DNA of 39,789 nucleotides from Brasilonema angustatum HA4187-MV1 (GTDB taxonomy: Bacteria; Cyanobacteriota; Cyanobacteriia; Cyanobacteriales; Nostocaceae). The translations under genes were made by a program, and so were the position numbers. The notes beneath the pieces were generated by a model, which saw only the letters and a list, made by a program, of their open reading frames with translations, did not search any database and had not been told where the DNA came from. Location of the stretch: NCBI GenBank assembly GCA_019359695.1, contig JAHHGV010000063.1, forward strand, positions 1 to 39,789, written 5' to 3'. Every line of letters starts with the position of its first letter. The first letter of the stretch is position 1. Below are positions 16,710-28,627 of this stretch, piece by piece.

Positions 16710-17282
16710 TCAGTCGCGTTTGGGCTCGTAATTAAGAACAACAATCCCGCAGTCAAATGATGTAGATTTTAATAATGTCAGATTTTGTTTGCTGTCAAGT
16801 TCTTTGAAAATTGTCATTCCGTTACCAATTGCAGTTGGATGTATAAATAAATGAAACTCGTCGATCAATCCTTGTTTGATTAGAGCCGATACAAAGGTCG
16901 CACCGCCATAAGCGATGATGTCTTTACCGTCTTGTTTTTTTAAGTTAGTGATTTCGTCAGCAAGGTTGCCTTTTGCTAAAACGGTATTGTCCCATTCTGA
17001 CTTGTCAAGCGTGTTGGTAAAAACAACTTTGTGTGTGTCTGTAAATTTCTTACCAGCTGTAAATTCTGGATCATCCGGATTTGCAGCCACACTAGCCCAG
17101 TAAGGAATGAACCCTTCGGCAAGTTTTCGTCCAAGGATAATGCAGTCAACAGGTTCAGTTATATCTTTAACATATTGTTTTGATTTGTCATCCCAATTCC
17201 ATACCATAAAGTCCATTTCGCCATTTAGCCCCGCAATATATCCGTCAACGGTCATTTGAACTTGAAGTTTTAATTTTCTCAT
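16710..17282 (-). CDS. Dihydrofolate-reductase-fold protein (RibD C-terminal type)
   Basis: This ~190-residue protein is of the RibD-C/DHFR-like reductase group. MRKLKLQVQMTVDGYIAG is the usual family start. CIILGRKLAEGFIPYW and DIIAYGGATFVSALIKQGLI mark the NAD(P)H-binding core, and DEFHLFIHPTAIGNGMTIFK the closing strands. Its substrate is unknown; such proteins are often annotated as deaminase/reductase without evidence. An in-frame ATG seven codons upstream (17303) has no ribosome site, whereas 17282 lies ~10 bases after AAAGGA. It is A/T-rich compared with its neighbours, and the sequence resembles Bacteroidota members, which hints at transfer. It may be the last gene of the YCII-SnoaL-VOC unit, now separated by repeat DNA. 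Confidence 0.85.
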   Translation of the reverse strand: MRKLKLQVQMTVDGYIAGLNGEMDFMVWNWDDKSKQYVKDITEPVDCIILGRKLAEGFIPYWASVAANPDDPEFTAGKKFTDTHKVVFTNTLDKSEWDNTVLAKGNLADEITNLKKQDGKDIIAYGGATFVSALIKQGLIDEFHLFIHPTAIGNGMTIFKELDSKQNLTLLKSTSFDCGIVVLNYEPKRD

Positions 17283-17303
17283 TGTCGTGTTTTCCTTTGT
17301 CAT

Positions 17304-17595
17304 AAAATTGTCTCAGTTTTAGTAATTTCAGCTTTAGGGAGATCCGTAAAAAAAAATCAAAGCGCCTGAGTCTTGAGCCTGCGGCACGGCTTCGCCCAAG
17401 CCGCGTGCGCAAAGCGCTCTGCAGAACGGACACGCTCTTGCAACGGCACTGCCCCTTGGGCAATCGCCAGCTTCAAAAACGATGGCTGAAACTCTTATTC
17501 TTTCGTCAACTTTCACTCATTTTTCGGCAAAGCCGAAAGTCGCTGACGGTTGAGTTCAAAAGAAATGCTTGCAGACATCTCCCAAGAATGATGGA
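17304..17595. repeat. Repeat-filled gap
   Basis: There is no gene here. Bases 17360-17470 hold dense palindromic repeats of the GCCTGCGGCACGGCTTCGCC and GCAAAGCGCTCTGC kind, scattered elsewhere in the window (39420-39580, and in shortened form at 27357-27381). Confidence 0.6.
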
Positions 17596-18006
17596 TCAAG
17601 CAGTCTTTTCACAGTTGACCATCCACGGAATGCCGAATTGGTCAACCAACATGCCAAACCGGAATGCCCAGAAGGTTTGCTCAAACGGCATCTTCACTTT
17701 TCCGTTTTCTGCCAAGGCATAAAAGACTCGCTCCGCTTTGACTGGGTCGTCAACGCTGATCTGCACGTAGAATCCTTGGGGTGTTTCAAAATATCCAGGC
17801 GGGCAGTCAGACCCCATCAAGAGGCGATCGCCCAAATCAAGGCAGGCATGCATAATTTTATCATGGCACTGAGCGGGCACATTCTCAGCTGAAGGCGCTT
17901 CAGAGTGGGGCAGCATCATAACGATTTTACCGCCGAGACATTGCTCATAGAACTTGAATGCTGCTTCACAATTGCCGTTGAACATGAGATAAGAATTGAT
18001 TTTCAT
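17596..18006 (-). CDS. VOC/PhnB-like protein
   Basis: This 136-residue protein is of the PhnB-like vicinal-oxygen-chelate (glyoxalase-fold) group. It begins MKINSYLMFNGNCEAAFKFY and has the typical LGDRLLMGSDCPP, GFYVQISVDDPVKAERVFYA and WAFRFGMLVDQFGIPWMVN blocks. AAGGAG stands seven bases before the ATG at 18006. The reaction is unknown; members of this group accompany ECF sigma factors and DGPF proteins in many bacteria. It lies 33 bases after the SnoaL-like gene in the same direction, so it is probably the third gene of one transcript. Confidence 0.9.
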   Translation of the reverse strand: MKINSYLMFNGNCEAAFKFYEQCLGGKIVMMLPHSEAPSAENVPAQCHDKIMHACLDLGDRLLMGSDCPPGYFETPQGFYVQISVDDPVKAERVFYALAENGKVKMPFEQTFWAFRFGMLVDQFGIPWMVNCEKTA

Positions 18007-18039
18007 GATGTGCTCCTTGGATTGGCTCAGTTGCTTGGG

Positions 18040-18483
18040 CTATGGGTTAAGCGTGAATGCGGCTTGAGAGGTGTGTGGATCAAATGGAATCGAGAGGTGC
18101 TCGTGTAGGATCTGCCAGTTGCCTTGATTTTTGTGGCAGACAGCGGTGACACGCATCCACGTCTGCATTGCTGGATGGTCTTCTGTTCCTGTGAAGCGAA
18201 ATAGCCAATGTGCAATTGCTAAGTCTTCACTGACAGTAATCTTGAGGTCTCGTGTTTCGATCTCAAAGGAGTTTGGGAAGCAAGGCAAACATTCTTCCCA
18301 GACTTGACGCCAAGCCACTTTCCCTTGGGTTTGGAACGGAGGTTTGACATCGAAGACGATGATCTCGGTGGCATAGCGGGACATGATTTGGTCAACATCC
18401 TTAGCACAGATGGCACGTTGTTGATCGGCGATCAATTGGCGAATCTGAACTTCATTGGATATTATTGTGCTTTCGGTTGTCAT
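18040..18483 (-). CDS. SnoaL-like/DUF4440 NTF2-fold protein
   Basis: This ~147-residue single-domain NTF2-fold protein includes VQIRQLIADQQRAICAKDVD, RYATEIIVFDVKPPFQTQGK and the C-terminal WMRVTAVCHKNQGNWQILHE. Such proteins bind small ligands or catalyse isomerase or hydrolase steps, but no catalytic assignment is possible here. The ATG at 18483 is chosen because GGAGAAA lies just upstream. An in-frame start at 18561 would overlap the end of the YCII gene and adds an atypical tail. It is the middle gene of the YCII-SnoaL-VOC group. Confidence 0.88.
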   Translation of the reverse strand: MTTESTIISNEVQIRQLIADQQRAICAKDVDQIMSRYATEIIVFDVKPPFQTQGKVAWRQVWEECLPCFPNSFEIETRDLKITVSEDLAIAHWLFRFTGTEDHPAMQTWMRVTAVCHKNQGNWQILHEHLSIPFDPHTSQAAFTLNP

Positions 18484-18538
18484 TGAAGTTTCTCCATTTG
18501 GTTTGAGGTTCAGTTTGGTTTGAAATTGAGCGCAAACC

Positions 18539-18895
18539 TTAATTCTCTGGTATGCCTGCAACTTCTATCACAGGGCGGATTTCGACAGTGCCGACCCGTG
18601 CTCCTGGAATCTGGGCAGCAATATTGATCGCCTCGTCAAGATCCTGGGCATTGATCAGGAAGAACCCACCCAATTGTTCGCGTGTTTCTGCAAACGGTCC
18701 GTCGGTCACCAGCGGTTTGCCGTTACGTACCCGGACACTGGTTGCAGTTGCTACAGAGTGGAGTGGGGCAGTCGCTAGATACTGTCCATTCGAGTTGAGT
18801 TGCTGTGCGAGCACAGCGGATTCTAAATAACAGTGCTCTCTCTCGGTTTCGCTCAGGGCATGTTCTTCCAGGTAAATCAGCAGCACATATTTCAT
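18539..18895 (-). CDS. DGPF/YCII-domain protein
   Basis: This 118-residue YCII-related protein has the signature DGPFAETREQLGGFFLIN (residues ~68-85) and the usual start MKYVLLIYLEE. GGAG is eight bases before the ATG at 18895; the frame is open further up to 18979, but that would run over the promoter region. DGPF proteins are the standard genomic partners of ECF42 sigma factors, and the divergent gene at 19084 is one. Their biochemical role is unknown. An ECF42-type promoter sits ~30 bases upstream of the ATG. It is first in the unit with SnoaL and VOC genes. Confidence 0.93.
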   Translation of the reverse strand: MKYVLLIYLEEHALSETEREHCYLESAVLAQQLNSNGQYLATAPLHSVATATSVRVRNGKPLVTDGPFAETREQLGGFFLINAQDLDEAINIAAQIPGARVGTVEIRPVIEVAGIPEN

Positions 18896-18924
18896 TGGGT
18901 TGTCTCCGTGGTTTCCCTTTTTTC

Positions 18925-18982
18925 GTAAGTCGAACAGCAATTGCTCAAATCGACACCTCGTCAGAAAATTTTTTATCATTAG
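18925..18982 (-). promoter_or_regulatory. ECF42-type promoter, repeat unit 1 (toward YCII gene)
   Basis: The minus strand reads TGTCGA (18955-18950), 17 bases, CGAC (18932-18929). This matches the ECF42 consensus as I recall it (TGTCGA, then CG[A/T]C). Transcription would start near 18922, giving a leader of about 27 bases. The 58-bp unit is repeated at 19016-19071. On the plus strand it also reads AGTCGA-17-CGAC. Confidence 0.72.
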
Positions 18983-19015
18983 ATACGTGGTTTACTTCCA
19001 TTGTTTCTTTTGTGA

Positions 19016-19071
19016 GTAAGTCGAACGGCAATCTCCCAAATCGACACTTCGCCAAAAATTTTTATTGTTAG
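19016..19071 (+). promoter_or_regulatory. ECF42-type promoter, repeat unit 2 (next to sigma gene)
   Basis: This is a direct repeat of unit 1 with a few substitutions. The minus strand carries TGTCGA (19046-19041), 17 bases, CGAC (19023-19020). The plus strand carries AGTCGA (19019-19024), 17 bases, CGAC (19042-19045), which could start a transcript ~33 bases before the sigma ATG. The strand that is used is not decided by sequence alone. Confidence 0.6.
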
Positions 19072-19083
19072 CTATGGTTCCAA

Positions 19084-20367
19084 ATGCACTCATCAGATGT
19101 AACCCAAGTTATTGACTCTGTTTATCGCGCTGAGTGGGGTCGGATCATCGCCATCCTGATCCGTCTGGTTGGGGATTTCGATGTAGCTGAAGAAACGGCA
19201 CAGGAAGCATTTACAGCCGCCTTTCATCAGTGGCAGTCCACGGGAGTTCCTGATCTGCCCCGTGCGTGGATTATCAAAACAGCCCGATACAAAGCCATTG
19301 ATCGCCTCCGCCGCCGGACGCGGCTGACGGAAAAACTGGAATGGTATGCGGCATCCGGGTTAATCCCAGCTAGCGAGGAGCCAACCTACGACACCGACGA
19401 AATTCCAGATGATCGGCTACGGCTGATCTTCACTTGCTGCCACCCGGCGCTAGCGATGGAGGCTCAAGTCGCTTTGACACTGCGGATGCTAGGCGGACTT
19501 GAAACTGATGAGATTGCACGGGCGTTTCTCGTGCCCACGGCGACAATGGCACAGCGGCTTGTACGTGCCAAGCGTAAGATTCGTGACGCGGGTATTCCTT
19601 ACAGAGTGCCGGATACAACTGATCTACCGATACGCTTGGAGGCGGTGCTGACGGTGATCTATCTCATTTTCAACGAAGGCTATGCGGCAACAACAGGTGA
19701 GACAATGGTCAGAGTTGACCTCTGTGCAGAAGCCATCCGGCTCGGTCGCCTTGTAAGGGCATTGATGACACCACAGCCGCCAGCAGAAGTGACTGCACTG
19801 GTGGCGCTTATGTTACTGCACGACTCACGACGCGATGCTCGCCTGGATGAGGCTGGTGATCTTGTTCTACTCGAAGATCAAGACCGTCGTCGCTGGAACT
19901 GGCGGCAAATCGCTGAAGCGCTACCGCTTGTTGAAGAAGCACTGCGCGGCGGAACTAGTCCTTTTGCCTTGCAAGCGGCGATCTCCGCATTACATTGTCA
20001 GGTGGTACGAGCGGAAGAAACCGACTGGGCACAGATCGTTCGGCTCTATGATGTGCTGGAACGTTTACAACCTTCGCCAATCGTGTCGCTAAATCGGGCG
20101 GTAGCGATCGCAATGGTAGACGGACATCAGGCGGCGCTTATACTGATCGATGGACTTACCACTGAACTCGATGGCTACCACCTGTTTCACGCCGCACGTG
20201 CCGATCTGCAGCGCCGCCTTGGAGACTCAGCGTCAGCCGCACAGAGCTACGCACGAGCGCTCGCGCTGGTCACCAACGACAGCGAACGCCGTTTCTTGGA
20301 GCGTCGGCTAAGCTCAGTTCAGCCTGCTAATTTTAGGTCAAGCGAGAGCAATCCTCCGGCAAGTTAG
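19084..20367 (+). CDS. ECF sigma factor, ECF42 type with C-terminal TPR-like extension
   Basis: This 427-residue protein has sigma region 2 at ~10-85 (AEETAQEAFTAAFHQWQSTG, PRAWIIKTARYKAIDRLRRR). Region 4 is at ~115-175 (DDRLRLIFTCCHPALAMEAQ, ATMAQRLVRAKRKIRDAGIP). A ~240-residue C-terminal helical domain follows (YLIFNEGYAATTGE, LNRAVAIAMVDG, DLQRRLGDSASAAQSYARAL), the TPR-like extension of the ECF42 group that is needed for activity in characterised members. No anti-sigma gene is nearby, as is normal for this group. It diverges from a DGPF gene across two ECF42-like promoter repeats. G+C is clearly higher than in the kinases nearby. The start at 19084 has only a weak ribosome site, but region 2 needs no longer N-terminus. 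Confidence 0.93.
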   Translation: MHSSDVTQVIDSVYRAEWGRIIAILIRLVGDFDVAEETAQEAFTAAFHQWQSTGVPDLPRAWIIKTARYKAIDRLRRRTRLTEKLEWYAASGLIPASEEPTYDTDEIPDDRLRLIFTCCHPALAMEAQVALTLRMLGGLETDEIARAFLVPTATMAQRLVRAKRKIRDAGIPYRVPDTTDLPIRLEAVLTVIYLIFNEGYAATTGETMVRVDLCAEAIRLGRLVRALMTPQPPAEVTALVALMLLHDSRRDARLDEAGDLVLLEDQDRRRWNWRQIAEALPLVEEALRGGTSPFALQAAISALHCQVVRAEETDWAQIVRLYDVLERLQPSPIVSLNRAVAIAMVDGHQAALILIDGLTTELDGYHLFHAARADLQRRLGDSASAAQSYARALALVTNDSERRFLERRLSSVQPANFRSSESNPPAS

Positions 20368-20396
20368 GTTGTATAACCGAGCGATCGCCTATAAAA

Positions 20397-22241
20397 CTAC
20401 TCAAGTACTTCCAGGTTTCGTACCGCGCCTTGATCCGCGCTAGTAGCTAGCATTGCATAAGCCTTGAGCGCTGCTGTCACCCGACGCTGCCGGGGCTGCG
20501 CGGGCTTCCAAGCATCTTTGCCCTTTGCTTCCATGGCAATACGACGGTTGGCTAATTCCTCCGTCGATAGATCCACATTGATACTGCGATTGGGGATGTC
20601 GATCAAGATCTGATCGCCGTCGCAAACCAGAGCAATGTTGCCGCCAGCCGCCGCCTCTGGAGAGGCATGACCAATCGAGAGGCCCGAAGTCCCGCCTGAG
20701 AAGCGTCCGTCGGTTAATAATGCACAAACCTTGCCCAGACCCTTGGATTTCAGGTAACTGGTCGGATAAAGCATTTCCTGCATGCCAGGTCCACCGCGTG
20801 GACCTTCATAGCGAATGATCACCACATCGCCCGCTTCCACTTCCGAATTGAGAATTCCTTTGACAGCAGCATCCTGACTTTCAAAAATACGTGCCCGACC
20901 TTCAAACACATGAATGCTTTCGTCTACGCCTGCTGTCTTAACAATACAACCGCGCTCAGCCAGGTTGCCGTATAGCACAGCCAGTCCGCCCTCGGAACTG
21001 TAAGCGTTTTCGACGCTGCGGATACAGCCGTTTTCCCGGTCCAGGTCGAGTGAGGGCCAACGGGTCGATTGACTGAAGGCTTGCTGAGTGGGAATACCCG
21101 CAGGACCAGCCTTGAAGAAGGTGTGGACGGCTTCGTCATCAGTTCGCATGATATCCCAGTGATCGAGTGCTTCTTTGAGCGTCTTGCTGTGAACCGTCGG
21201 CAAGTCCGTGTGGAGCAGTCCTGCACGGTCCAGCTCGCCGAGAATGCTGGGGATGCCGCCGGCACGGTGGACGTCCTCGATATGATACTTGGGTGTGTTA
21301 GGTGCTACCTTGCAGAATTGTGGAACCTGGCGCGAGAGGCGATCGATGTCAGTCAAGGTAAAGTTGACATCAGCTTCATGAGCTGCAGCCAGCAAGTGCA
21401 GAATGGTGTTGGTCGATCCGCCCATGGCGATGTCCAGCATCATGGCATTCTCAAACGCTTTGAAACTGGCGATAGAGCGTGGCAGTACCGATTCGTCGTC
21501 CTGCTCGTAGTAGCGGCGGGTAATGCTGACAATGGTTCGTGCGGCGTTGAGGAACAGATCCTTACGGTCGAAATGGGTTGCCAGGACGGTGCCATTGCCT
21601 GGTAAGGAGAGACCGATCGCCTCGGTGAGACAATTCATCGAGTTGGCGGTGAACATGCCAGAGCAGGAGCCACAGGTTGGGCACGCGGAACGCTCATATT
21701 CCTCGGCAACCTCGTCGCTGATACTGTCGTCCGCAGCAACCACCATGGCGTCCACCAAGTCCAGTTTATGCTCCGACAGCTTTGTCTTACCGGCTTCCAT
21801 GGGACCGCCGGAGACGAATACTGCGGGAATGTTGAGACGTAGGGCTGCCATCAACATACCGGGGGTGATCTTGTCACAGTTGGAAATGCAGACCAGGGCA
21901 TCGGCACAATGGGCGTTGACCATGTACTCGACCGAATCGGCGATGATCTCGCGTGAGGGCAGACTGTAAAGCATCCCGTCATGGCCCATAGCGATGCCAT
22001 CATCCACTGCGATGGTGTTGAATTCCTTAGCTACACCACCAGCAGCTTCAATTTCACGGCACACCAATTGGCCCAGATCCTTCAGGTGAACGTGGCCGGG
22101 TACGAATTGGGTAAAAGAGTTGGCGACGGCAATGATTGGCTTCTCGAAATCTGCTGTGTGCATTCCGGTGGCGCGCCAGAGCGCGCGGGCACCGGCCATA
22201 TTGCGTCCCTGGGTGGAGGTTTTGGATCGATAGGTCGGCAT
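20397..22241 (-). CDS. ilvD: Dihydroxy-acid dehydratase, long proteobacterial form
   Basis: This ~614-residue IlvD dehydrates 2,3-dihydroxy acids to 2-keto acids in valine, leucine and isoleucine synthesis. [20 protein letters not shown] is the family start, so 22241 (AGGA six bases upstream) is preferred to the ATG at 22298, which adds 19 atypical residues. Iron-sulfur and metal cysteines are in [13 protein letters not shown] and [20 protein letters not shown], and the C-terminal [15 protein letters not shown] and [16 protein letters not shown] are intact. The length and sequence resemble the ~616-residue enterobacterial enzyme rather than the ~560-residue form I associate with cyanobacteria. 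G+C is high. It is convergent with the sigma gene, 29 bases apart. I infer an acquired, possibly second, copy. Confidence 0.95.
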
Positions 22242-22379
22242 GGCGCATCCTATTCGTCTAGGGGTTTTTAATAGTCTAGACTTTATTGTGTTCCCCAAAG
22301 TAGTAGGTTGTGTCGCAAAAACTGCTCAGTGACAAACACTCTGTGTCGAAGGGCACTAAAAAAAGCCGAAACACTTGTA

Positions 22380-22810: not shown

Positions 22811-25800
22811 ATGTCCACCGAACAGTTAACCAGAGAAAGCGATAATTTAGATTTAAAACAGCTCCTGAAAACGCTGGTAGCTGTTAAAAAAGGTGATTTT
22901 TCTGCCCGTATGCCAATAGACCAAACTGGTATGGCAGGAAAAATTGCCGATACGCTCAACGATATTATTGAACAAAATGAGCGGCTAACAACAGAACTAC
23001 AAAGGATTAGTCATGTTGTTGGTAAAGAGGGCAAAATTAGTGAACGCGCCTCTTTAGGAAATGTTCGTGGTTCTTGGTCAGTGTGTGTTGATTCTGTCAA
23101 CACCCTGGTGACAGATTTGGTTCAGCCGACAGAGGAAACGGCGCGTGTGATCCGGGCGGTGGCGAATGGTGACTTATCTCAAGCGATTGCACCAGAAATT
23201 GAAGGTAGACCCCTCAAGGGAGAATTTCTCCAAACTGCCCAAATGGTTAATACAATGGTGGATCAGTTGAATTCGTTTGCGAACGAGGTCACACGAGTTG
23301 CTAGAGAAGTTGGAACTGAAGGTAAGCTGGGAGTGAAAGCAGAAGTTCCTGGTGTAGCTGGAACTTGGAAGGACTTGACGGACAGTGTGAATTTAATGGC
23401 GGGAAACTTAACCGCACAAGTTCGTAATATCGCCGAAGTCACGACAGCGGTAGCAAACGGCAACCTCTCCAAAAAAATTACCGTTGATGTCAAAGGTGAA
23501 ATTTTGGAGTTGAAAAATACTATCAACACGATGGTGGATCAACTCAATTCCTTTGCGTCGGAAGTGACGCGGGTTGCGAGGGAAGTGGGAACCGAAGGTA
23601 AACTCGGTGTGCAAGCAGAAGTACGCGGCGTTGCTGGGATTTGGAAAGACTTAACCGACAACGTGAATTTGATGGCGGGTTCTTTAACCGCGCAGGTACG
23701 AAACATTGCGGAAGTGACGACGGCGATCGCCAACGGTGATCTCTCGAAGAAAATTACTGTTGATGTTAGAGGTGAAATTCTAGAACTCAAGAACACCATC
23801 AATATTATGGTGGATCAACTCAGTTCCTTTGCCGGAGAAGTGACGCGGGTTGCAAGGGAAGTTGGTGCAGAAGGAAAACTGGGCGTACAAGCAGAAGTTC
23901 CAGGTGTGGCTGGAACTTGGAAAGATTTGACCGACAGCGTCAACTTCATGGCAGGTTCCTTGACAGCGCAGGTACGGAATATTGCTGAAGTGACTACGGC
24001 GGTTGCAACTGGTGATCTCTCGAAGAAAATCACTGTTGATGTCAAAGGCGAAATTTTAGAACTGAAAAATACGATCAACACAATGGTGGATCAACTCAGT
24101 TCCTTTGCCAGCGAGGTGACACGAGTTGCCAGGGAAGTGGGAACTGAAGGTAAGCTGGGTGTACTAGCGGATGTCAAAGGTGGTGCTGGTACATGGAAGG
24201 ACTTGACCGACAGCGTGAATTTTATGGCGGGTTCCTTGACAGCGCAGGTACGGAATATTGCGGAAGTGACGACGGCGATCGCTAACGGTGACCTTTCTAA
24301 AAAAATCACTGTGGTGGTGAAAGGCGAAATTTTGGAGTTGAAAAACACTATTAATATTATGGTGGATCAACTCAACTCCTTTGCATCGGAAGTGACGCGG
24401 GTTGCAACAGAAGTGGGCAGTGAAGGTAAGCTGGGCGTGCAAGCAGATGTCAGAGGTGTTGCAGGCACTTGGAAAGATTTAACCGACAGTGTCAACTTCA
24501 TGGCGAGTTCCTTGACAGGGCAGGTGCGAAACATCGCTGAAGTCACCACGGCGGTAGCAACTGGTGACCTCTCCAAGAAAATCACTGTGCAGGTCAAAGG
24601 TGAAATTCTGGAGTTAAAAAACACCGTGAACACGATGGTGGATCAACTCAATTCCTTTGCGTCGGAAGTGACGCGGGTTGCGCGAGAGGTGGGAACCGAA
24701 GGTAAGCTGGGCGTGCAAGCTGAAGTACGAGGCGTTGCTGGCACTTGGAAGGATTTGACTGATAGTGTGAATTCGATGGCAGGTTCTTTAACTGCACAGG
24801 TGCGGAACATTGCCGAAGTCACTACAGCAGTAGCAACTGGTGACCTCTCCAAGAAAATTACTGTTGACGTTAAAGGTGAAATTCTGGAATTAAAAAACAC
24901 CATCAATACGATGGTGGATCAACTCAACTCCTTTGCATCGGAAGTGACGCGGGTTGCGCGGGAAGTGGGAACCGAAGGTAAGCTGGGTGTACAAGCTAAT
25001 GTCAGAGGTGTAGGAGGCACTTGGAAAGATTTGACCGACAACTTCAACTTGATGGCAGGTAACTTGACGGCACAAGTGCGGAATATTGCCGAAGTCACGA
25101 AGGCGGTGGCAAATGGTGACCTCTCGAAAAAAATCACTGTTGATGTTAGAGGAGAAATTTTGGAGTTGAAAAATACTATCAACACGATGGTGGATCAGCT
25201 TTCGTCTTTCGCCTCAGAGGTGACGCGAGTTGCGAGGGAAGTCGGCACTGAAGGGAAATTGGGCGGTCAAGCGCACGTTGTTGGGGTGGCAGGTACCTGG
25301 AAAGATTTGACCGATAATGTCAACTCGATGGCGGGTAACTTGACCGCACAAGTGCGGGGTATAGCCAAAGTTGTGACGGCGGTTGCTAATGGTAACTTGA
25401 AACAGAAACTCACACTAGATGCCAAGGGAGAAATTGAAACTTTGGCAGAAACGATTAATGAGATGATTGGTACTCTAGCGACGTTTGCCAACCAAGTCAC
25501 AACAGTCGCACGTGAGGTGGGGATTGAAGGTAAGTTGGGTGGACAAGCCAAAGTGCCGGGGGCTGCGGGAACTTGGAAAGATTTGACCGACAACGTGAAT
25601 GAACTGGCTGCTACCCTCACCACTCAATTACGGGCGATCGCCGAAGTCGCAACTGCTGTCACCAAAGGCGACTTAACGCGCTCAATTTCTGTGGAGGCGC
25701 AAGGTGAAGTCGCCATGCTGAAAGACTACATCAACCAAATGATTGCTAACCTGCGGGAGACAACCCAGAAAAACACTGAACAAGACTGGTTGAAAACTAA

Positions 25801-28627
25801 CTTAGCGAAGTTTACTCGCATGCTTCAAGGTCAGCGTGACCTTGAAACGGTGTCTAAACTGATTCTCTCGGAGTTAGCACCGCTGGTTGGGGCTTCGCAG
25901 GGTGTCTTTTTTATCATGGATATTACAGTAGACATTAAGTACTTAAAATTACTCAGCAGCTACGCTTACCGTGAACGCAAGCATCTTGCAAACCGCTTCC
26001 AGTTGGGTGAAGGTTTGGTCGGACAATGCGCTTTGGAAAAAGAACGCATTCTGCTGACAGAGGTACCGCACGACTATATCAAGATTAGTTCTGGCTTAGG
26101 TGAAGCGACTCCGCTGAATGTTGTTGTGTTACCTGTCCTGTTTGAAGGACAAGTCACCGCAGTGATTGAACTCGCCTCATTCCGACGCTTTAGTGAAATT
26201 CATCTGTCATTCTTTGACCAACTTACTGAAAGCATAGCGATTGTATTGAACACCATCGCTGCCAGTATGCGTACTGAAGAGTTACTCAAACAGTCCCAGT
26301 CTTTAGCACAGGAGTTACAAAGTCAGCAAAGCGAACTCAGGGAAACAAACAAGCGCCTAGAAGAACAAGCAAAATCGCTCCAAGCCTCCGAGGATTTACT
26401 GAAAAAACAGCAAGAAGAATTACAAGAGACGAACGCTGAACTAGAAGAAAGATCGGAATTATTAGCTTTGCAAAACAAGGAAGTTGAGCGCAAAAATAAT
26501 GAAATTGAACAGACAAGCCGAGAATTAGAAGAGAAAGCAGAACAACTAGCACTCTCGTCAAAATATAAGTCTGAGTTTCTGGCGAACATGTCCCATGAAC
26601 TACGGACACCGCTAAATAGCTTGTTGATTTTGGCGAAATTGCTCGCAGATAACGTGGACAAAAATCTCACAGCTAAACAAGTCGAGTATAGTCGTACGAT
26701 CTACTCGTCAGGAAACGACCTTTTGACGCTGATCAATGACATTTTGGATTTGGCAAAAATTGAATCTGGAACAATGTCAATTGACATTGAGCAAATGCTG
26801 CTTGCAGAATTGCAAGAGAACATTGAGCGAACTTTTCGACAAATCGCGATTGATAAAGCGCTGAATTTCACCATACAATTCGCCCCCGAACTGCCAAGAA
26901 GTATCTACAGCGATACAAAGCGTTTACAACAAGTCTTGAAAAATCTCCTCGCCAATGCTTTTAAATTTACAGATCATGGAGAAGTCGGCTTGCAGGTGTT
27001 TGTGACAACACAAGGGTGGAGTCATGACCAGGAAAGTTTGAATCGCGCTCAAACTGTGATAGCATTTGCAGTCAGCGATACGGGCATTGGCATTGCTGTA
27101 GATAACCAAAAAATAATTTTCGAGGCGTTTCAACAAGCTGATGGCACCACTAGTCGCAGATATGGCGGTACGGGGTTAGGCTTATCGGTGAGTCGCGAAA
27201 TCACCCGTCTTCTTGGTGGAGAAATTAAACTTCACAGTCGTGTTGGGGAAGGTAGTACTTTTACACTGTACTTACCCCAGGAAGGAGAACAAATCAATTC
27301 AAAATTAGAAGTCTCTCCCTCACTTCCTTTGCTTCCTTCTTCACTCCCTCCCTCCCAGCCTACGGCTCGCTTCGCTAACACTCCTTCACTCACTCCGTCA
27401 TTCCCTCACTCCCTGACTCCCCTCACCGACGACAGAGGCAATATTGAAGAAGGTGAACGCATACTTCTTATAATTGAAGATGACATCAATTTTGCCCGTA
27501 TCCTTTTAGACATGGCACGCCAACAAGAATTTAAAGTTATTGTTGGCCATAATGGTAGCGGGGGTTTAGCACTGGCACAACAATTTCAACCTTCAGCGAT
27601 CATTTTGGATATCCGTCTACCAGGAATGGATGGTTGGACGGTACTGGATCGCCTCAAGCATGATCCAAGCACCCGTCATATTCCAGTACATATCATGACT
27701 GTTGAGGAAGGGCGACAGCGCGGGTTGCAACTAGGTGCCATTGCTTATATACAAAAGCCAGTCAGCACTGAGGTGTTGTCTCAAGCACTGAGCAATATTA
27801 AAGGTTTTGTTGAACGCCCAGTCAAGAATCTGCTGATTGTGGAAGACGACGATAATCAACGCCATAGTATTATGGAATTGATTGGTGACACAGATGTTGC
27901 AATCACTGGTGTGAAAACTGCTGGCCAGGCGCTAGAAGCGATAGAAAACCAGTATTATGATTGTGTCGTTCTCGATTTGGGTCTGCCTGACATGAGCGGG
28001 TTTGAACTGATCACAAGAATCAAACAGCATCCCAATGGTCAAGCACTACCAATTATTGTTTATACAGCAAGAGAATTGAGTCGGGCAGAAGACACTCAAC
28101 TGAGGCGCTTGACAGAGACGATTATTATAAAAGATGTGCGATCGCCTGAACGTCTCCTTGATGAAACAGCATTATTCCTGCATCGAGTTCAAGCAAATTT
28201 GCCTGCGCCCAAGCGACAAATGTTAGAACAGTTGCATTCCAATGATCCTGTACTTGCGGGTAAAAAAGTTCTTATCGTAGATGACGATATGCGTAATATC
28301 TTTGCCCTCACGAGTATGCTAGAGCGTTATCAAATGCAGGTCTTATATGCCGAAAATGGTAGAGATGGCATTGAAGTTTTGCAAAACACACCAGACATTG
28401 ATGTTGTTTTGATGGATATTATGATGCCACAAATAGATGGTTACGAAACAACGCGCCTAATTCGGCAGAACAATCAGTTTAAATCCCTGCCAATCATCGC
28501 ACTCACAGCAAAGGCAATGCAAGGTGACAGAGAAAAGTGTATTGAAGCAGGCGCATCAGATTATGTTAGCAAACCTGTAGACATTGAACAGTTGCTTTCG
28601 CTGTTGCGTGTTTGGTTATATCGATAA
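22811..28627 (+). CDS. Soluble poly-HAMP hybrid histidine kinase with GAF and three receiver domains
   Basis: This 1938-residue protein has no membrane segment. The order is an N-terminal HAMP-like region (1-145), then nine tandem 92-residue units (~147-974), each with a paired HAMP structure ([46 protein letters not shown]). A GAF domain follows (~998-1150), then a coiled coil (~1155-1245). HisKA has H1262 in [11 protein letters not shown]. HATPase has N1382 in NLLANAFKF, then DTGIGIA and [11 protein letters not shown]. After a low-complexity linker come three receivers with phospho-acceptors D1600 ([11 protein letters not shown]), D1722 ([11 protein letters not shown]) and D1869 ([10 protein letters not shown]). 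The repeated HAMP array resembles group III (Nik1/Os1) osmosensing kinases. The ATG follows CCGCCACC, with no Shine-Dalgarno. It stands alone, with no response-regulator gene adjacent. Confidence 0.95.
23249..25732 (+). repeat. Nine 276-bp tandem coding repeats (HAMP array)
   Basis: The period is exactly 276 bp. The unit start (NTMVDQ or its equivalent) is at 23249 and recurs every 276 bases to 25457. Units 1-8 are strongly alike at DNA level; unit 9 has diverged ([10 protein letters not shown]). The last part of unit 8 already drifts toward unit 9. The high DNA similarity makes this region prone to recombination and to assembly collapse. Confidence 0.95.
27296..27440 (+). repeat. Low-complexity repeat insert in the kinase linker
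   Basis: Between HATPase and the first receiver, the DNA turns into CTCCCTCACTCC-type simple repeats with CCTACGGCTCGCTTCGCTAA in the middle, a word typical of the window's intergenic palindromic repeats. The frame stays open and encodes a Ser/Pro/Leu-rich linker ([17 protein letters not shown] and onward). Confidence 0.75.

Follow-up and report, generated by a model that had tools for sequence, protein, structure and literature searches.

This study revealed that the gap between a DGPF/YCII gene and a divergently oriented ECF42-type sigma gene contains two tandem copies of a promoter unit, both of which probably point at the DGPF gene, so that self-activation of the sigma factor from these copies is improbable. 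The reading we favour, and consider reasonably probable, is that the units are tandem one-way ECF42 promoters for the DGPF operon and that the sigma gene would be transcribed from a housekeeping site at a shared -35 element. All positions refer to the window, that is, the whole 39.8-kb stretch of DNA that was analysed (Table 1). At the level of sequence, the polarity of the motif, its duplication, its conservation and the absence of a family promoter facing sigma (20 of the 23 divergent loci, all 42 sigma-first loci) are established. The start sites, the extent of the operon, the promoter read by the housekeeping sigma factor and possible competition for the common -35 element are what we infer from them.

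Table 1. Positions of genes, repeat periods, promoter units and candidate sigma-70-like sites in the window.
Feature	Position	Strand	Basis or remarks
RibD C-terminal-domain (RibD_C) protein, possibly last gene of the target operon	16710..17303	minus	PF01872, 91.7 bits; preceded by a 292-nt gap
VOC/glyoxalase-superfamily protein, probable target operon	17596..18006	minus	domain scan
SnoaL-like protein, next in the probable target operon	18040..18489	minus	PF13474, 69.2 bits
DGPF/YCII-domain protein, 118 aa, first gene of the target unit	18539..18895	minus	PF03795, 73.7 bits
Tandem duplication, first period	18896..18986	no strand	repeat search and gapped alignment
Unit 1, ECF42-type promoter towards DGPF	18928..18955	minus	TGTCGA-N17-CGAC-T; 25.1 bits DGPF-ward, 1.8 sigma-ward
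Sigma-70-like site TCGACA-N18-TATCAT, towards sigma	18950..18979	plus	10/12 matches; shuffle p = 0.03; putative function
Tandem duplication, second period	18987..19083	no strand	repeat search and gapped alignment
Unit 2, ECF42-type promoter, same polarity	19019..19046	minus	TGTCGA-N17-CGAC-T; 28.6 bits DGPF-ward, 2.5 sigma-ward
Sigma-70-like site TCGACA-N16-TATTGT, towards sigma	19041..19068	plus	9/12 matches; shuffle p = 0.10; putative function
ECF42-type sigma factor, 427 aa	19084..20367	plus	region 2, region 4 and DUF6596 extension

The two genes are separated by 188 bp, with start codons at 18895 (DGPF, minus strand) and 19084 (sigma, plus strand), and one unit lies directly upstream of each. 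The units are 28 bp long, read GTCGA-N16-TCGAC on either strand and are spaced 91 bp apart. Unit 1 appears as AGTCGA-N17-CGAC-A on the plus strand and as TGTCGA-N17-CGAC-T on the minus strand, and the boxes of unit 2 are identical. The original prediction of a duplicated, near-symmetric ECF42-type promoter between the DGPF gene and its sigma factor thus holds, with boxes on both strands of both units. The direct repeat that it described is also real, but its length of 56 to 58 bp was an underestimate. A repeat search of 18700-19300 returned a single direct-repeat family of two 60-nt copies, 78% identical without gaps and offset by 91 bp; in a gapped alignment, the repeat widens to approximately the full intergenic region (18896-18987 versus 18987-19083, a period of about 91 bp). 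The placement of a unit just upstream of each gene was likewise correct, and the leaders, formerly put at about 27 and 33 bases, are here predicted to be about 25 nt from unit 1 to DGPF and about 30 nt towards sigma; from unit 2, the leader to the DGPF start would be about 116 nt. These values assume a start 9 nt past CGWC, a distance taken from a single ECF42-dependent promoter of S. meliloti, SMc01149 (Table 1 in the available part of PMC6180224). As regards the sigma start codon, the protein of locus L029 begins at an ATG that matches window position 19074 (ATGGTCTCAGACGCAGAATCAGATGTA); this ATG is out of frame in the window owing to a difference of one base in length, and the earliest in-frame start of the region 19060-19090 is 19084.

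A scan of the 8.5-Mb genome, which had been proposed together with the original prediction, gave 17 occurrences of TGTCGA-N16/17-CGWC, including both units of the window. The window pair is by far the best scoring: under the promoter model described below its members reach 28.6 and 25.1 bits, and the other 15 pattern matches do not exceed 12.4, nine of these 15 having a 16-nt spacer that the spacer-17 model penalises. Within the matches to TGTCGA-N16/17-CGWC, no further target of a regulon was found in this genome, since all 15 sites outside the intergenic region score 12.4 or less; matches to GTCGA-N16/18-CGAC were listed but not scored as a set. A control with the reversed pattern is unfair because the reversed letters differ in composition. 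The genome-wide count, the scores and the recurrence at the equivalent place in relatives rule out that the units are chance matches. Two similar pattern matches, G000:C56:318039-318064 and G000:C80:37103-37128 (L115 and L122), both contain CACATTATTTGTCGTC; they have more the look of an interspersed repeat or a transposon end than of promoters.

For comparison, ECF42-type loci were collected by a genome scan (80 loci kept) and by DUF6596 or protein searches in the phylum and the order of the window, in 12 genomes specified by locus and in five additional phyla; 120 further stretches were retrieved. The best-scoring loci were taken first, up to 30 per search; the set is a sample, so the numbers of loci given here mean at least that many. 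The 378 loci contained 380 sigma open reading frames, and after removal of 10 without a start call they yielded 350 distinct sigma proteins. Loci L001-L028 and L109-L126 (own-genome pattern and family matches) and L129-L131, L133, L135 and L143-L157 (the window, or shorter duplicates of places that had been retrieved again) were left out. The DGPF gene is codirectional and upstream of sigma in 223 cases, codirectional and downstream (sigma-first) in 42 and divergent in 23; in 62 cases, there is no DGPF gene nearby. Enough upstream sequence for the promoter counts was present in 219 of the 223 DGPF-upstream loci and in 61 of the 62 without a near DGPF. Start codons were called by script, and those of L202 and L030 are probably placed too far downstream. 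One record, L033, is named as a Bordetella parapertussis metagenome-assembled genome; this naming is probably wrong, since its genome (G551) came up in the phylum search around G549, a Pyrinomonadaceae record.

The promoter model has 28 columns and was built from 100 promoters of DGPF-upstream loci outside the window's clade. Training sites deviated from TGTCGA and CGWC at no more than one position, had a spacer of 17 and lay 8-160 nt upstream of DGPF. The core boxes served for picking, and the other 18 columns are independent of it; across all 115 DGPF-upstream promoters these unpicked columns have an asymmetric consensus around the -10 element, CCGTTCG[TA]CT. As a control of the picking, perfect matches occurred in 63 of the 219 loci versus 3 on the reverse strand, and matches with up to one departure in 121 versus 31 (n = 219), so some training sites may be chance matches. 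Training scores have a median of 25.2, a 10% quantile of 16.9 and a minimum of 5.6, and a score of 15 or more was counted as a promoter match.

With regard to direction, the model ranks unit 2 (28.6) first and unit 1 (25.1) second on both strands of the whole window, with the next site at 5.6; the ECF42-type identity of the units, initially proposed from a match to the ECF42 consensus, is supported by this model from other ECF42 loci. Read towards sigma, the units score 1.8 and 2.5, which rank tenth and eighth in the window, and with the same model on both strands these sigma-facing scores fall below that of the lowest training promoter (5.6). The same polarity was found throughout the comparison of 25 loci (the 23 divergent ones, L195 and L346): the DGPF-ward score exceeds the sigma-ward score in 43 of 43 units, with means of 26.2 and 4.3, and the 18 unpicked columns alone give the same result in 43/43 units and 25/25 loci (9.4 versus -4.7). 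The earlier idea that the sigma factor drives itself and its target equally from these units finds no support in this uniform polarity. Nor is the unit next to the sigma gene specialised for it, since in the DGPF direction it outscores the DGPF-side unit in 6 of 13 multi-copy loci, ties with it in 2 and scores below it in 5.

Gene order offers a second view of direction. A promoter match lies upstream of DGPF in 117 of 219 DGPF-upstream loci (training loci included), in 31 of 42 sigma-first loci, which all lie outside the training set, and in 23 of 23 divergent loci; matches on the reverse strand number 9/219 and 1/42 in the two codirectional orders. A match directly facing sigma was found in none of the 42 sigma-first loci, in 1 of 61 loci without a near DGPF and in 3 of 23 divergent loci.

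These counts bear on the alternative of a true bidirectional ECF42 promoter, in which the holoenzyme would read each unit both ways and drive DGPF and sigma, perhaps more weakly towards sigma. Several observations suit such a promoter. The exact GTCGA-N16-TCGAC unit is present at least once in 20 of the 23 divergent loci of the comparative set, and in the remaining three (L331, L320 and L366) the DGPF side reads ATCGA instead of GTCGA. In L031, L033, L194 and L338, a single unit leaves 19-31 nt to DGPF and 28-29 nt to sigma. Three divergent loci, L032, L070 and L299, reach 15-19 bits towards sigma; two of them belong to separate lineages, and these three could be readable both ways. In the genome G354, where sigma and DGPF are now about 5 kb apart, each has retained a good unit (26.7 bits on the DGPF side and, intact and directed towards the former position of DGPF, 27.2 on the sigma side). 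Three accounts would fit this arrangement: the unit may serve sigma, the locus may have been rearranged recently, or the unit may be used by the intervening genes, which by eye comprise a TetR-like gene and others. Nevertheless, the best sigma-ward score stays below 15 in 20 of the 23 divergent loci (median 5.0, and lower still in the window), the sigma gene has no family promoter upstream in any sigma-first locus, and the left half of the sigma-side unit is lost or changed in L030, L206 and L354. We regard two-way reading by the ECF42 holoenzyme as unlikely on the whole, although weak reading towards sigma, or two-way use in some lineages, is possible.

The near-palindromic appearance of the units can be explained as a by-product, since the complement of TGTCGA, TCGACA, contains the CGAC that forms the -10 element in this clade, and the 17-nt spacer sets the register. 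Among the codirectional sisters of the clade, in which sigma lies downstream of DGPF, 7 of 15 promoters are exact palindromes, 3 are near-palindromes and 5 are not palindromic (their -35 element is TGTCGT). Exact palindromes are more common in the divergent loci (19/22) than in these sisters (Fisher p = 0.025, relatedness ignored), as two-way use predicts. Against this, the reverse-strand scores of the sisters match those of the divergent loci (means of 6.4 and 5.5; p = 0.79 for divergent above sisters), and a reverse-strand score of 15 or more also occurs in 5 of 16 exactly palindromic promoters of DGPF-upstream loci. The base after the -10 element, at which the two readings conflict and which could favour sigma, follows DGPF: 19 of 22 divergent loci have T, which is also the commonest base there among codirectional promoters, and one of 22 has A, as needed towards sigma. 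The variable column of the -10 element is A in 22 of 22 divergent loci and T in 75 of 115 codirectional promoters. The argument that CGAC instead of CGTC proves two-way use was rejected, as A likewise stands in this column in all the codirectional sisters of the clade (15/15). Complementarity would account for much of the symmetry of the units, beside possible selection for two-way reading.

An operator for a dimeric transcription factor would likewise fit the dyad symmetry and the presence of a copy close to each gene, in which case the palindrome would not be a sigma-factor promoter at all. We consider this highly improbable, because the flanking consensus (TGTCGA..., CCGTTCG[AT]CT) is common to codirectional ECF42 loci, where 98 of 121 promoters are non-palindromic, and because the position of the unit tracks the DGPF genes through three gene orders.

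The unit was found at the same place in relatives, a comparison that had also been proposed at the outset. The 14 divergent loci of the window's phylum carry one unit (L194), two units (8 loci including the window) or three units (5 loci), with a spacing of 81-96 bp where there are several. In five multi-copy loci, successive periods are 76-90% identical without gaps. L031, L033, L320, L331, L338 and L366 each have one unit within a gap of 75-96 bp; these six loci are called acidobacterial on the basis of the record of L031 and of the phylum search around it. The simplest history would be one unit per gap at first, with the entire gap duplicated in tandem later. A tree of 349 of the 350 proteins was built with FastTree, omitting one protein no longer than 250 aa. 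In it, the 14 loci from the phylum of the window group in a single clade (support 0.875), and a clade of 24 (support 1.0) consists of 21 divergent loci and three without a near DGPF. As L070 and L299 fall elsewhere in the tree, outside the 24-member clade, the divergent layout would have arisen about three times (parsimony by eye).

How the sigma gene is read may be suggested by its upstream flank. A generic sigma-70 scan of 18850-19150 found two sites versus 0.4 expected, both on the plus strand and both using TCGACA; their -35 elements are the complement of the -35 elements of units 1 and 2, i.e. the right ends of the units. Across loci, 10 of 26 flanks proximal to sigma have TAnnnT at a spacer of 16-18, as do 6 of 18 internal flanks and 1 of 121 codirectional controls, and within-flank shuffles give p < 0.05 in 6/26, 6/18 and 3/121, respectively, the control flanks differing in base composition (shuffle mean of 2.7 versus 3.6). 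TCGACA is kept in sigma-side units where the left half has been lost (L354, which has no near DGPF) or changed (L030), and in L206 a TCGACA remnant adjoins sigma. In 8 of the 10 proximal flanks with TAnnnT (L031, L033, L331, L338, L354, L366, L189 and L194), this hexamer ends exactly 5 nt before an in-frame start codon, as is expected for leaderless transcripts, and the sigma mRNA is probably leaderless in the acidobacterial relatives. As a general rule, leaderless housekeeping transcription of sigma was rejected: it suits the single-unit acidobacterial loci but fits poorly in the multi-copy cyanobacterial ones, 11 of 13 of which lack TAnnnT in the proximal flank; six internal copies have TATCAT or TATAGT. 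With moderate support, the sigma gene is perhaps read by a housekeeping sigma factor from TCGACA-N16/18-TAnnnT, with a -35 element common to the DGPF promoter; we put the odds of this step at better than even. A conserved AAAATTTT-like tract also lies about 7-10 nt beyond TCGACA (18965-18974 and 19053-19064 in the window, and many sigma-side flanks of divergent loci); it would coincide with the place of an UP element for the DGPF promoter, and acidobacterial single-unit loci have comparable AT tracts.

In the favoured reading, units 1 and 2 would be tandem copies of one directional ECF42 promoter that faces DGPF-SnoaL-VOC on the minus strand, and they would have originated by duplication of almost the entire intergenic region of about 91 bp. 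The ECF42 holoenzyme would start DGPF transcription at unit 1, with a short leader, and at unit 2, with the leader of about 116 nt. The sigma gene would be transcribed by the housekeeping sigma factor, with the TCGACA hexamer as -35 element and TAnnnT 16-18 bp further on as -10 element, and the divergent promoters of DGPF and sigma would stand back to back on common base pairs. A variant compatible with this reading is that unit 2 acts mainly as a road-block, at which bound, DGPF-facing ECF42 holoenzyme would occlude the housekeeping promoter of sigma and exert negative feedback while initiating little DGPF transcription. The predicted -35 hexamers of the divergent promoters are the same base pairs, and unit 2 outscores unit 1 as an ECF42 site (28.6 versus 25.1), both of which speak for this variant; the housekeeping -10 element at unit 2, however, matches only 4 of 6 positions, and repression of sigma is a proposal, which leaves the road-block doubtful in our view. 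Equally tentative is the broader idea that two sigma factors share a -35 element back to back, that ECF42 at its target promoter blocks its own mRNA, and that the duplication tunes dose and feedback.

The surrounding genes fit an ECF42 locus. ECF42 loci characteristically have no anti-sigma gene close by, and the six genes within 16710-22298 covered by a domain scan carry other domains. DGPF, SnoaL and VOC, possibly with RibD_C, form a probable target operon. The sigma factor matches regions 2 and 4 (PF04542, 33.1 bits; PF08281, 32.4 bits; both above cut-off) and carries a C-terminal extension with a match of 122.2 bits to DUF6596, a domain associated with ECF42. The extension of the group is about 200 residues long and rich in TPRs; here TPR models gave no match at E <= 0.001. 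Two further traits of the group, a YCII/DGPF gene next to the sigma gene (188 nt away and divergent) and a family promoter upstream of DGPF (25.1 and 28.6 bits versus a training median of 25.2, n = 100), are also present. The sigma gene is the sole DUF6596 match in this genome assembly, and the domain is sporadic in the phylum (15 of 386 sampled genomes); the genome of L037 (G557, Kribbella) has 19 such matches versus this one. Elsewhere in the window, 22811-28627 encodes a hybrid histidine kinase of 1938 aa, in which many nearly identical, HAMP-like segments follow one another ahead of the kinase and several receiver-like domains, all judged by eye.

The domain plan is like that of known ECF42 systems with DGPF/YCII neighbours, namely the Sven_0747 group of S. 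venezuelae, ECF-10 of P. putida and RpoE10 of S. meliloti. In contrast to these, the sigma gene of the window is divergent from DGPF and not downstream of it, the promoter-bearing intergenic region is tandemly duplicated, and a -35 element is possibly shared with a housekeeping-type promoter. The consensus in S. venezuelae is reportedly TGTCGA / CG[AT]C. The boxes of the window are similar to the S. meliloti promoter, given as TGTCGG-17-CGTC in the available part of PMC6180224, and a YCII neighbour of ECF42 sigma factors, as in the window, is described in the accessible portion of PMC8999054. Overexpressed RpoE10 apparently did not activate its own operon, and its authors note that the motif at this operon overlaps the mapped start, which possibly explains the lack of activation (PMC6180224, same part). 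As an excerpt of a review gives autoregulation for about 55% of the ECFs whose regulons have been predicted (PMC8103513), a lack of self-activation by the sigma factor of the window would not be odd.

Pseudo-symmetrical bidirectional promoters are known in E. coli (PMC12825309, in the part available). They share with the window overlapping elements on opposite strands, where binding of one polymerase can exclude the other. In E. coli, the symmetry lets one sigma-70 polymerase bind either way, whereas in the window the ECF42 match is one-way and the opposite strand fits, if anything, a different sigma factor. A limited literature search, which did not include the main ECF42 papers (S. venezuelae 2018; extensions 2019), returned no tandem or divergent ECF42 promoters in titles or abstract openings. 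ECF42 and cyanobacteria occurred together in the literature searched only in PMC9205884, in the available part of which both stand within the reference list.

Taken together, these findings suggest a rule for ECF42 loci, in which the promoter, where found, precedes DGPF in every gene order. They also warn against equating a palindromic promoter with a two-way one, as symmetry in the ECF42 family would arise largely from the complementarity of the -35 and -10 elements. In cyanobacteria, the whole promoter region varies in copy number, from one to three units, and the design in which two sigma factors may share a box is offered as a testable proposal.
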